Shown in pieces: positions 2,126-37,850 of a stretch of 42,529 bases of DNA (the stretch's first letter is position 1; every line of letters begins with the position of its first letter). The stretch comes from Candidatus Methanophagales archaeon. GTDB lineage: Archaea; Halobacteriota; Syntropharchaeia; Alkanophagales; Methanospirareceae. The stretch lies in the NCBI GenBank assembly GCA_028572065.1, contig JAPVWK010000002.1, positions 1 through 42,529 of the forward strand, read 5' to 3'. The notes below the pieces were generated by a model. It worked only from the letters and a program-made list of their open reading frames with translations. It was not told where the DNA came from and did not search any database. A program made the translations under genes and the position numbers.

Positions 2126-3404
2126 GTGAAACAAGACATTATGGACGTGAAAGAGGTGTTCCCTGAGTTTTCTGCAATTTTATCTGAAGATGCGATTGTG
2201 GAACTGGCGAAAGAATATGGGGTAGAAGACAAGCGTAAGCGGAAATTAGCCGTTGTTCCTTTCTTCTGGCTAATGGTGCTGTCTGCGATTGAATCGGCTC
2301 CGCGGGGCTGCCTGTCAAAACTGGTTGCCTTTTTCAGTGCGTCATTCTCCCTCATTTATCCCTGTGATCAAGTAAAAGGGCTCAGTCGCATGGCGCTCAG
2401 CAAGAAGCTCTCGGGCACCAACTGGATGTTCTTCAGGGGCGTGTATAACCGACTGCTCACGTGCTATATCAACTCGCTCGAGCCCGATGAGAGATTCTTC
2501 TTCGCACGATTCAAAGACTGCTTCGCTGTGGATGGAAGCGTAATACGGCTCAATAAGACCCTTGAAAAGGTATTTAAAAGCACGAGTAAATCCCAAGCCG
2601 CTTTGAAGTTAAATGCCAAATTTTCAGTTCGAAACCTTGTTCTCACCAAGTTGCAAGTCACAGAAGGTAAAAGACATGACAGCAGGTTCCGTTTTATCAC
2701 GAAAGCGTCAAATATCCTTTATCTCTTTGATCGGGGGTACTGGAATTTTACGAGATTTAAGAAAATCGTTGAAGCAAAGAGCTTCTTCGTTTCCCGCTTG
2801 AAGAAGAGCTGCGACCCACTAATTGTCACCGTTTCTGATCTGAAATGGGCGCATCTGGTGGGTAAGCGGCTCTCTCAGATAACGAAAGCTCTAAAAGATA
2901 TGAACGAGCTGGATGTGAAGGTACAACTCGCAAAGAGCAAGAACTCACAATTTAAGACCGATTTGAGGCTCGTGGGGATACTGCACGAAGGGAAATGGCG
3001 ATTTTACGTGACAAACATCTTTGATGCAATATTTACCCCGCAGGTTATCTACGAGCTGTATTCAAAACGCTGGACCATCGAGATTTTTTTTCAACGACAT
3101 CAAGCATATTATAAAGCTATCGCACATATTCACGAAGAACAAGAACGGCATCATGGCGGAAATCTACTCAGCGCTTATCTTCTATCTCCTTGTTAGGATT
3201 ATAACTGCAATTGCAGCGAAAAACTCAGGTAGGAAGATAACCGACTTCAGTTTCAAAAAAAGCGTTGAGATTTTCAGTGCTTTCTTCTTAATCCAACTAT
3301 CTGAACTTATCCGGGGAACAAAAGCGAAATTTATTGCCTTTTTCCAGAAAGTAGCTTGTGCAATCGTCTGTAACTGCCTGAAACCCCCGCCTCGTGCTAC
3401 TTGA
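2126..3404 (+). pseudogene. IS4-family DDE transposase, frameshifted in a T8 run
   Basis: The RNase H-fold catalytic residues are visible: FAVDGSVIRL (first Asp), LYLFDRGYWN (second Asp), and the IS4 signature Y-(2)-R-(3)-E-(6)-K. The signature is complete only if the frame changes in the eight-T run at 3084-3091. The first frame reads EIFFQRH and stops at 3196. The +1 frame restores YSKRWTIEIFFNDIK and continues to the TGA at 3404, giving about 425 residues. Start: GTG 2126 or, more likely, ATG 2141 with GAGGTG upstream; a TATA box lies at about 2110-2119. One extra T (mutation or homopolymer sequencing error) is the simplest explanation; a programmed +1 shift cannot be excluded. Confidence 0.88.
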
Positions 3405-35321: not shown

Positions 35322-35344
35322 AACATGAGAGGAGACAAATAAAA

Positions 35345-35944
35345 ATGCCAACAATAACTCATTTTATCGTGCCGGCAGATGACATGGAGCGAGCAAAAAA
35401 GTTCTACGCCGAATTATTTGATTGGAAAATCGAAAAATTCCCGGGACCAATAGATTACTATGCGATTACCACTACCGACGAAAACGGTGAGGAAGGTCTT
35501 GGTGGCGGGCTGGGAAAAAGAGAAGAACCACAAGAGGCAATTGTCAACTATGTTGATGTTCCGTCAGTGGATGAGTTCATTGCAAAAGTTAAAAAACTCG
35601 GTGGTAAAGTAGTGGTTCCCAAGACGGCTGTGCCCGGTATAGGATATGCTGCTGTTTGCATTGACACTGAGAATAATACCTTTGGACTCTGGGAATGCGA
35701 TGAAGACGCGAAAATGAACCAATGTGAAAGTTGCGGGATGCCGCTTGACGAAAAAACGACATCTAAATTTGACGACCGATATTGCATCCACTGCCAGAAC
35801 CAAGAAAGCGGTGAGTTGGGAAGTAAAGAACAGGTGCGGGAAGGTAGTATAAACGCCGCGATGCAGTTTATGGGTAAGACCAGAGCGGATGCAGAGAAGA
35901 TGGTGGATGAAATGATGCCAAAACTGCCACGGTGGCGAGAATAA
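35345..35944 (+). CDS. VOC (glyoxalase-like) domain fused to a zinc ribbon
   Basis: 199 residues. Residues 1-120 are a VOC domain (ITHFIVPADDMERAKKFYAE, AAVCIDTENNTFGLWE). Residues 125-199 hold a zinc ribbon (QCESCGMPLDEKT...YCIHCQ) with the helical tail typical of this putative-zinc-ribbon family, ending LPRWRE. VOC proteins bind metal and act on small molecules or antibiotics; the substrate here is unknown. The last 135 coding bases and about 60 bases downstream are duplicated 818 bases further on, at the end of the CopG-type antitoxin gene. Confidence 0.85.
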   Translation: MPTITHFIVPADDMERAKKFYAELFDWKIEKFPGPIDYYAITTTDENGEEGLGGGLGKREEPQEAIVNYVDVPSVDEFIAKVKKLGGKVVVPKTAVPGIGYAAVCIDTENNTFGLWECDEDAKMNQCESCGMPLDEKTTSKFDDRYCIHCQNQESGELGSKEQVREGSINAAMQFMGKTRADAEKMVDEMMPKLPRWRE

Positions 35945-36004
35945 AGGTGTAGGGCCAAACACGGAGTGCGATTACACACATCCTGTTTATCTCTTTTTTA
36001 TTTA
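35810..36004 (+). repeat. 195-bp duplicated segment, copy A
   Basis: Runs from GGTGAGTTGGGAAGTAAAGA through the gene end (CTGCCACGGTGGCGAGAATA) to TTTATCTCTTTTTTATTT. It aligns without net gap to 36628-36822 at an offset of 818 bases. Confidence 0.85.
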
Positions 36005-36087
36005 GTTGAAGTGAAAAAATAGGATTCTATGACCTCTCAAGAGAGGAACGGGAAAAAACGGTCCAAAAGATAGAACGCGAAATATAA

Positions 36088-36374
36088 ATGAAGATTGAAG
36101 GAATAATATGGCTCAGAGACATTGTGGACAAGCTTGCTCTTAAACACCACGTTGAAACTCATGAGGTTGAGGAAGTGCTCTCAGTGGCAAATCTAAGTTT
36201 CGTTTTGTTAAGAAAGGGGAACGAGAGGGTGAAGGTGTATACTTAGCTTTAGGACGAACCAGCGCAGGACGATATTTGTCGGTACTTTTTATTTATAAAA
36301 AGACAAAAGAGGTATTAATATTGAGTGCCAGAGACATGGCAAGAAAGGAAAGGAGACAATATGACAAAAAGTGA
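36088..36374 (+). pseudogene. BrnT-like toxin gene with one-base frameshift
   Basis: Missing from the ORF track because it is broken. ATG 36088 encodes MKIEGIIWLRDIVDKLALKH and HHVETHEVEEVLSVAN. After a one-base loss near 36193 the next frame continues KFRFVKKGEREGEGVYLALG, RTSAGRYLSVLFIYK and ILSARDMARKERRQYDKK to TGA 36374. Inserting one base (making Asn-Pro-Lys) restores the BrnT-type RNase pattern, including the terminal SAR-x-x-x-x-ERR motif. The stop overlaps the antitoxin start by 14 bases, the standard toxin-antitoxin layout. Either truly dead or a sequencing error. Confidence 0.75.
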
Positions 36375-36762
36375 ATTAAAAAATCTGCCACGTTTTGGAT
36401 CCCTTGATGAACTTGTAAAGTTCTTTGATACCCATGATCTGGGTGAATACTGGACTGAGATGCCGGAAGCGCACTTTGAAGTTGATGTCAATAGGAAGAC
36501 GCATCTCTTTGCTATTAACACAGAACTTGCTAATAAATTGACAGACATTGCTAAATCCCGAAAAATCTCTTCCGAGGTACTTATCAGCACTTGGTTAAAA
36601 GAGAAAATTCAGGAACAGATAGAGAACGGTGAATTGGCAAGTAAAGAACAGGTGCGGGAAGGCAGTATAAACGCTGCAATGAAGTTTAGGGGTAAGACAA
36701 GAGCGAAAGCCGAAAAGATGGCGGATGAAATGATGCAAAAATTGCCACGGTGGCGAGAATAA
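36361..36762 (+). CDS. CopG-type antitoxin with a captured zinc-ribbon-protein tail
   Basis: 134 residues from ATG 36361, with AAGGAGACAAT directly upstream; the track start at 36325 is too early. The N-terminal part (LPRFGSLDELVKFFDTHDLG, EYWTEMPEAHFEVD, ELANKLTDIAKSRKISSE) is a CopG/BrnA-like antitoxin that binds DNA and neutralises the upstream toxin. From residue 90 the sequence SKEQVREGSINAAMKFRG...LPRWRE is a near copy of the end of the VOC/zinc-ribbon protein. It lacks the cysteines, so the tail is a duplicated scrap rather than a working ribbon. Confidence 0.8.
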   Translation: MTKSELKNLPRFGSLDELVKFFDTHDLGEYWTEMPEAHFEVDVNRKTHLFAINTELANKLTDIAKSRKISSEVLISTWLKEKIQEQIENGELASKEQVREGSINAAMKFRGKTRAKAEKMADEMMQKLPRWRE

Positions 36763-36822
36763 AGGCGTAGGAACAAACACGGAGGGGTGTGACCACCCCC
36801 GGTTTATCTCTTTTTTATTTTA
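36628..36822 (+). repeat. 195-bp duplicated segment, copy B
   Basis: Second copy of 35810-36004, now forming the 3' end of the antitoxin gene and its downstream terminator region. About 83-85% identical by eye. Confidence 0.85.
36784..36816 (+). terminator. Hairpin plus T-run terminator after the antitoxin gene
   Basis: GGGGTG-TGAC-CACCCC forms a perfect 6-bp stem, followed by GGTTTATCTCTTTTTTATTT. Copy A of the duplication has only a degenerate stem at the matching place. Confidence 0.6.
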
Positions 36823-36941
36823 GCAGAGGCAAAATTATAGTATTCCATGATCGCACAAATGCGGAAACGAAAATTAGAGATAACACCTATAACGGGGCAA
36901 CGGAATAGGTGGAGCTTTAATGCGAGGGGGGACTCGGCATC

Positions 36942-37850
36942 ATGGAGACCGTAACTATTGAACCAAAGCCACCATACGATATAAAGACGCATTTTGAACA
37001 TTACAGCTTAGGTAATCTTCAACCATTGCCCGCCATATACGAAAAGGGTATTTACCGGCGGGCGTTCCGACTAAAAGATGATATTTTGGTTCCTTTTGAA
37101 ATCGAACTAAATGATGATGTGGATAGCCCGAAATTAAAGGCTACTTTTTATTCTGCTATTACTAATAAGGAACGAGAACAAGCCATTGCTAAACTAAAAT
37201 GGGTTCTTGACACGGAATACGATTTGAAACCGTGCTATGAATACATGAATTCTGACCCGATTTTGAGTAGGGTCCGGAACAATAATTATGGCTTAAGGCC
37301 GAGCTACTACAGCACCGTCTATGAAGCGATTATTGTCGCAATAGTGCAACAACAAATTTCATTGAAGATAGCCAGCCATATGGTATCACTTATTGTCAGA
37401 AGATATGGCGACTGTATCCGGGTTGGCAATAAAGAATTCTGGGAGTTCCCGTCACCAAAAGAACTGGCAAAAGCCACTGTCAAAGGTTTAAGAGATTGTA
37501 AATTGAGCGAACGGAAAGCAGAGTATATTCGTAATTTCTCGCAGGTAGTTGCAAAAGGTGAGTTTTACCCAGAGAGCTTGAAAAAGTGCGATTATGTGCA
37601 GATTGTAGATAAAATAACTTCTTTTCGGGGCATGGGGCTGTGGACCGCGGAAAGTGTAATTGTAACTTCCATTGATGTTGAAAATGTGAATCCATCAGGC
37701 GACTTGGGTGCAAGAAAGGCGATTTCGCATTTTTATAGTGGCGACAAACTCATGAGTGAAGCGGAGGTCCGGAACTTTACTGAAAGATGGGGGAGATATA
37801 AAGGGATTATTACTTATTACTTGATGGCGGAATATGTACATAACGAGTGA
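36942..37850 (+). CDS. AlkA/3-methyladenine-DNA-glycosylase-like HhH-GPD protein
   Basis: 302 residues. The HhH-GPD core spans about 100-300: AIIVAIVQQQISLKIASHMV, the helix-hairpin-helix ITSFRGMGLWTAESVIV near residue 225, and the catalytic Asp in NPSGDLGARKAI near residue 252. The N-terminal beta domain resembles AlkA. It would remove alkylated bases from DNA. No C-terminal Fe-S cysteines, so not the EndoIII/MutY branch. GAGGGGGGAC precedes the ATG. Single gene. Confidence 0.87.
   Translation: METVTIEPKPPYDIKTHFEHYSLGNLQPLPAIYEKGIYRRAFRLKDDILVPFEIELNDDVDSPKLKATFYSAITNKEREQAIAKLKWVLDTEYDLKPCYEYMNSDPILSRVRNNNYGLRPSYYSTVYEAIIVAIVQQQISLKIASHMVSLIVRRYGDCIRVGNKEFWEFPSPKELAKATVKGLRDCKLSERKAEYIRNFSQVVAKGEFYPESLKKCDYVQIVDKITSFRGMGLWTAESVIVTSIDVENVNPSGDLGARKAISHFYSGDKLMSEAEVRNFTERWGRYKGIITYYLMAEYVHNE

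Follow-up and report, generated by a model that had tools for sequence, protein, structure and literature searches.

Stop-codon loss in front of a duplicated zinc-ribbon gene end as the probable origin of an extended CopG antitoxin in a Methanophagales archaeon

In the window, the whole 42,529-nt stretch of DNA analysed here from a Candidatus Methanophagales archaeon, a methane oxidiser of the ANME-1 group, a CopG-type antitoxin gene runs on into a second copy of the end of a neighboring zinc-ribbon gene. The best explanation as a whole, to which we give a probability of about three in four, is a toxin-antitoxin module flanked by repeats of the zinc-ribbon tail, recombination among such loci, and a subsequent loss of the antitoxin stop codon. 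An earlier note on this DNA had taken the repeat as direct evidence of gene fusion by segmental duplication. The segment is duplicated, but the chimera does not seem to have been built by the duplication, as two related loci, L035 (GoMg2) and L036 (CSMAG_2436), keep a stop codon at the same junction. According to our comparison of related sequences, the fusion would result from the later loss of this stop. The BrnT-CopG module lying between the two repeat copies, including its toxin gene, was not reported in that note.

The repeat is direct, and the features of the window located below between 35345 and 37850 are all on the forward (+) strand. Copy A (35803..36055) consists of the zinc-ribbon tail, a terminator region and about 55 nt similar to the upstream region of an AlkA-like gene. 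Copy B (36621..36873) contains the tail, a terminator with a perfect stem and the beginning of the sequence that precedes the AlkA-like gene. The best local alignment of both regions comprises 206 identities, 46 mismatches and 2 gap positions (206 of 254 columns) and reaches a score of 154, compared to a maximum of 18 among 200 mononucleotide shuffles. In a whole-genome search copy B matched copy A with an E-value of 9.4e-63. The start-to-start spacing of 818 is as described earlier, but the recurrence is not exact: the copies share 81% identity over about 253 bp, instead of the proposed 195 bp (35810-36004 versus 36628-36822), and 88% across the first 164 nt. A third copy of the tail is present on contig C22 of the same genome. 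In the coding tail each of the window's two copies is more similar to the other (89%) than to any relative.

Copy A covers the last 47 codons or so of a gene (35345..35944) encoding a protein of 199 aa, which combines a VOC (glyoxalase-like) domain (PF00903, E 6.7e-7) with a Zn_ribbon_2 domain (PF12674, E 5.8e-10) whose whole profile is matched by residues 127-198. The tail corresponds to the C-terminal half of Zn_ribbon_2, which thus is its source. Of this family the antitoxin holds only the C-terminal helical half without cysteines: the chimeric protein scored 12.7 bits against PF12674, below the gathering cut-off of 22.5, and matched profile positions 34-81 only. Both the antitoxin ORF and the VOC/zinc-ribbon gene end in the peptide -LPRWRE, confirming the earlier observation. 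Unfused relatives carrying this tail far from any VOC gene had been named as evidence against the fusion. Such a case was half found in L036, where the tail is unfused and lies beside a stand-alone zinc-ribbon gene of 76 aa, which lacks the VOC domain and matches the whole PF12674 profile.

The zinc-ribbon gene directly follows a 154-aa ORF in L036 (4333-4345), L048 and L050. In the window (35322-35720), L035, L020 and L033 a VOC domain is joined ahead of the zinc-ribbon after this ORF. The presence or absence of VOC at the zinc-ribbon locus is a second case of domain gain or loss. One particular glutamine codon of the zinc-ribbon tail is replaced by an in-frame stop both in the C22 paralogue (L003:1521-1526, CAG to TAG) and in L057, a Gottesmanbacteria contig. 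A search of solved structures gave no useful match for the zinc-ribbon protein, nor did the corresponding search for the toxin.

The module begins behind copy A with a spacer (36016..36087), which is found between copy A and the toxin gene in all three filled loci, namely the window, L035 and L036. Blastn identities of the spacer were 93% to L035, 91% to L036, and 87% over 38 nt to L056; the match in L056 concerns the first part of the spacer and lies ahead of the AlkA-like gene. The spacer is followed by a BrnT toxin pseudogene (36088..36374), 287 nt in length compared to 285 nt in intact relatives, which encode 94 aa. Alignment to L035 placed two additional nucleotides (CT) at about 36178-36181, and this frameshift leaves no intact reading frame in the window. 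The toxin gene is intact in L035 and L036. Relatives' toxins matched PF04365 (BrnT_toxin) with E-values around 1e-9 (38.7 bits for L035 and 39.2 for L037; gathering cut-off 34.5), and such intact relatives would place the toxin gene in the BrnT class. In L038 (3675-5011) about 1.08 kb of inserted sequence interrupts a BrnT gene.

The antitoxin core comprises 87 codons (36361..36621) and matches PF12441 (E 4.9e-7) with 30.8 bits, against 40.7 for L037 and a cut-off of 28; no match to BrnA (PF14384) was returned. Its start likely is the ATG at 36361 rather than the GTG at 36325, since all relatives start there and the antitoxin gene then overlaps the toxin gene's end. BrnT-BrnA type II systems (PF04365 plus CopG/RHH PF12441) likewise have the toxin gene upstream and an antitoxin gene overlapping its end. 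In contrast to BrnT-BrnA, the toxin gene of the window is frameshifted, and the antitoxin matches PF12441, not the BrnA family PF14384, and carries a foreign C-terminus of 46 residues. BrnT-CopG pairs are a known class of type II systems, and nothing categorically new was found here. Those antitoxin relatives that carry names derive from ANME-1/Methanophagales MAGs.

Homologous CopG antitoxins had been expected to end near residue 88, and this holds: codon 88 is a stop (TAG, TAA or TGA) in at least 11 distinct related antitoxin loci. The antitoxin of the window, instead of ending shortly after RHH helix 2 at about residue 87, is 46 residues longer. At the position of the former stop (36622..36624) it alone reads GAG, followed by the zinc-ribbon tail as C-terminus (36625..36762; 45 codons and a stop, delimited by alignment with copy A and relatives). 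The peptide across the junction is ...KIQEQIENGELASK... and the nucleotide sequence is CAG GAA CAG ATA GAG AAC GGT. The corresponding junctions are CAG GAA CAG ATA TAA TAG AAC GGT in L035 and CAG GAA CGG ATA TAG AAC GGT in L036, with the tail in frame behind the kept stop in both cases. The existence of the duplication junction alone therefore does not open the fusion frame. Since at least 11 related loci stop at this codon, and L035 and L036 keep the stop at the junction, the stop at codon 88 is taken as ancestral and the GAG of the window as derived, which fits a C-terminal extension by stop-codon loss.

One alternative is a single step, in which duplication of the VOC gene end into the antitoxin gene fused both at once, the stops of L035 and L036 having arisen later. 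An open reading frame through the junction and the mutual closeness of both tails in the window would be expected in this case. However, the TAG of L036 occupies the codon at which tail-less, unfused relatives stop and hence is ancestral there, L035 stops at the same place, and two lineages would each have to return to a stop independently. We therefore regard fusion in one step as very unlikely.

The whole fusion depends on one base, 36622, of a draft MAG. If this base were in reality a T, the antitoxin would end at codon 87 and there would be no chimera. The contig belongs to an assembly of 229 contigs with 83% completeness, and a single base decides, but there is no positive sign of an error. 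Misassembly is contradicted by the occurrence of the structural junctions in other genomes: the junction between the toxin-antitoxin pair and the tail was found independently in L035 and L036, and the junction between the tail and the AlkA-like gene in L056. An error of sequencing or assembly is accordingly considered rather improbable.

Alternatively, TAG could be translated in this clade, e.g. as pyrrolysine, so that a fused protein would be made in L036 and others and the tail would be a working domain. In-frame TAG codons do occur in several related genes (the zinc-ribbon tail of C22 and the junction of L036), and the frame of tail B is open in all three genomes (the window, L035 and L036). 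On the other hand, L035 has TAA followed by TAG, and TAA or TGA are found at the same codon in related loci. Moreover, a search of the window's genome for PylS gave no match exceeding the curated cut-off, and its single weak match resembles those obtained in 13 of 14 control genomes. As the genome is 83% complete, the lack of PylS is no proof. We discarded pyrrolysine recoding, and readthrough of the stop hardly deserves credence as an explanation.

The surroundings of the module suggest how the tail came to lie behind the antitoxin. The toxin-antitoxin pair is flanked by the two repeats, which look as though they bounded a segment inserted into a zinc-ribbon locus. Downstream of copy B the window contains an HhH-GPD/AlkA-like glycosylase gene (36942..37850; PF00730, E 1.4e-12), and the same order of tail, terminator and gene is found in L056. 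This locus consists of tail, terminator, spacer and AlkA-like gene without toxin or antitoxin, and its colinearity with copy B of the window extends as far as the AlkA-like gene, with 83% identity across 229 nt. The AlkA-like gene would then be the original right-hand neighbor of copy B. The zinc-ribbon gene of L056 is truncated, begins near the start point of copy B and lies behind an unrelated gene; L056 therefore is no pristine empty site. In L062 a similar stretch without the tail was noticed by eye upstream of the AlkA-like gene.

Unlike in the window, copy B is followed in L035 and L036 by another sequence, flank X, normally found downstream of module-less zinc-ribbon genes (L020, L050, L049, L051 and L033). 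Filled and module-less loci match here with, e.g., 82% over 104 nt (E 1.6e-26). The comparisons of the AlkA-like flank and flank X thus place the module at two kinds of loci, each with a module-less counterpart. The C22 paralogue shows a further arrangement, in which VOC, zinc-ribbon, tail and spacer are followed by a toxin remnant and an antitoxin with a stop at codon 88, without copy B.

After the zinc-ribbon terminators of L050, L049, L051, L033 and L020 a flank conserved over about 90 nt was observed (GAGGCGAAAAATGAGTGAGAAGTTTCAGTTAAAG...GTATATGCGAA...GGATATAC), which is often followed by ACGTTA. This flank may be a small repeat or a recombination site. Integron cassettes were considered as well and rejected; TIGR02249 matches in the family were all below the cut-off, as in the controls, and a paper on archaeal integrons does not mention Methanophagales. 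Viral carriage was likewise rejected, with no antitoxin relative among viral contigs.

The terminators also differ between the two copies. Copy B has a perfect stem, GGGGTG-TGAC-CACCCC, as described in the earlier note, which had proposed that it was gained. Hairpin energies are -12.4 kcal/mol for copy A, the weakest, -13.8 for copy B, -18.9 for C22 and -22.8 for L056. Since most relatives have good hairpins, the hairpin is regarded as ancestral, with copy A having lost its stem and copy B having gained nothing. Most likely, the terminator region of copy A (35963..36003, from the fold of 35945-36012 and of relatives) represents a decayed stem followed by a T-tract.

Between the window and L035, spacer, toxin and antitoxin genes show 90-100% identity, and both tails 74-88%. 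Synonymous divergence follows the same pattern, with a dS of 0.07 for the antitoxin and 0.84 for tail B. Site patterns supporting within-genome and between-genome relationships are about equal in number (8 and 7, respectively), and this mixture was read as a sign of partial gene conversion. The tree of the tails (135 nt, 21 rows) contains one starred branch and neither supports nor excludes a single clade of copies B. Given this tree and the equal site patterns, the shared junction is the main argument for common descent of copy B. The mosaic is most simply read as the result of crossing over or gene conversion between tails.

From these data the following course of events is proposed. The module would have been joined to a zinc-ribbon locus, and a tandem-type duplication of tail, spacer, toxin and antitoxin genes, with a unit of 818 bp, would have put the tail in frame directly behind the antitoxin stop. 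Thereafter the module may have moved or recombined between zinc-ribbon loci through ordinary homologous recombination in the tails. Finally, in the lineage of the window, the antitoxin stop would have changed from TAG to GAG, by which the antitoxin became 46 residues longer. The shared junction is then explained by the duplication and subsequent movement between loci, and the conversion-like mosaic by homologous recombination in the tails.

Modules with direct repeats that integrate and excise by homologous recombination are a related case, and here too filled loci occur together with module-less ones (L056, L050, L049, L020 and L033). They differ from the present locus in that our module, which contains the toxin and antitoxin genes only, has no integrase gene, that neither an excised circle nor another intermediate was seen, and that the repeats correspond to the end of a gene plus a terminator and not to an att site. 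It may be speculated that BrnT-CopG represents a minimal cassette without integrase, spreading among ANME-1 zinc-ribbon genes via homologous recombination between tail repeats, perhaps as a circle of about 818 bp. Insertion would restore the end of the host gene and leave an in-frame tail behind the antitoxin stop, which could be captured by one mutation. This more general proposal is tentative, and at present we consider it doubtful.

Whether the extended antitoxin has a function is a separate question. The tail could extend RHH helix 2 and add a new binding capacity, making the protein a selected functional chimera. The antitoxin core is open and constrained (dN/dS mostly 0.15-0.4), and the low dN/dS of tail B is also compatible with selection keeping the tail. 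In an AlphaFold model of the antitoxin, helix 71-110 continues unbroken into the tail and is followed by a predicted helix at 114-127, so the extension could be structurally tolerated. Model confidence is medium, with a pTM of 0.50 and a tail pLDDT of about 75-81, the tail being modelled without an alignment. At three positions tail B carries residues (R, K and Q, including a change from P to Q) that are absent there from 15 functional tails, although the functional tails of L020, L055 and L057 contain as many odd residues as tail B of the window. Moreover, the toxin gene is frameshifted, and the antitoxin C22:1506 also lost its stop and acquired an unrelated extension, as predicted under relaxed constraint. 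A selected chimera therefore seems quite unlikely. Beside a broken toxin gene the added tail was probably tolerated without having been selected, and we favour the view of an orphan antitoxin that has been extended neutrally.

New C-termini that arose by loss of a stop codon have been documented 54 times in Saccharomyces and 28 times in Drosophila (PMC4494051). As in the antitoxin of the window, a mutated stop adds a new C-terminus in these cases. There the new sequence is noncoding, whereas the sequence added in the window, in an archaeon, was coding before its capture and is the duplicated tail of a different gene, lying in frame. Our literature search on stop loss in antitoxins revealed nothing relevant. 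The fusion is a well-documented case of the ordinary gene-fusion kind, located beside an already broken toxin gene. Its value lies in being a rare prokaryotic fusion at the domain level of which the steps can be read in living relatives, from module-less loci through the duplication with the stop kept to the loss of the stop. It indicates that duplication and fusion were separate events here, that an in-frame coding fragment placed in advance can be captured by one substitution, and that a toxin-antitoxin module can use repeats made up of the end of a gene and its terminator as seams for recombination.

Two further observations were made in the genome of the window. The second antitoxin copy, on contig C22 (C22:1506; L004:1418-1900, G000:C22), lost its stop via a one-base change of frame, and its extension (...EQVIEAKEWIEG...) is unrelated to the zinc-ribbon tail; only the 3'-end of the toxin gene is present there. 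In the window itself, region 2126-3404 contains a transposase-like ORF of 356 aa and an overlapping second frame which, by eye, resembles its continuation, suggesting a frameshifted transposase.
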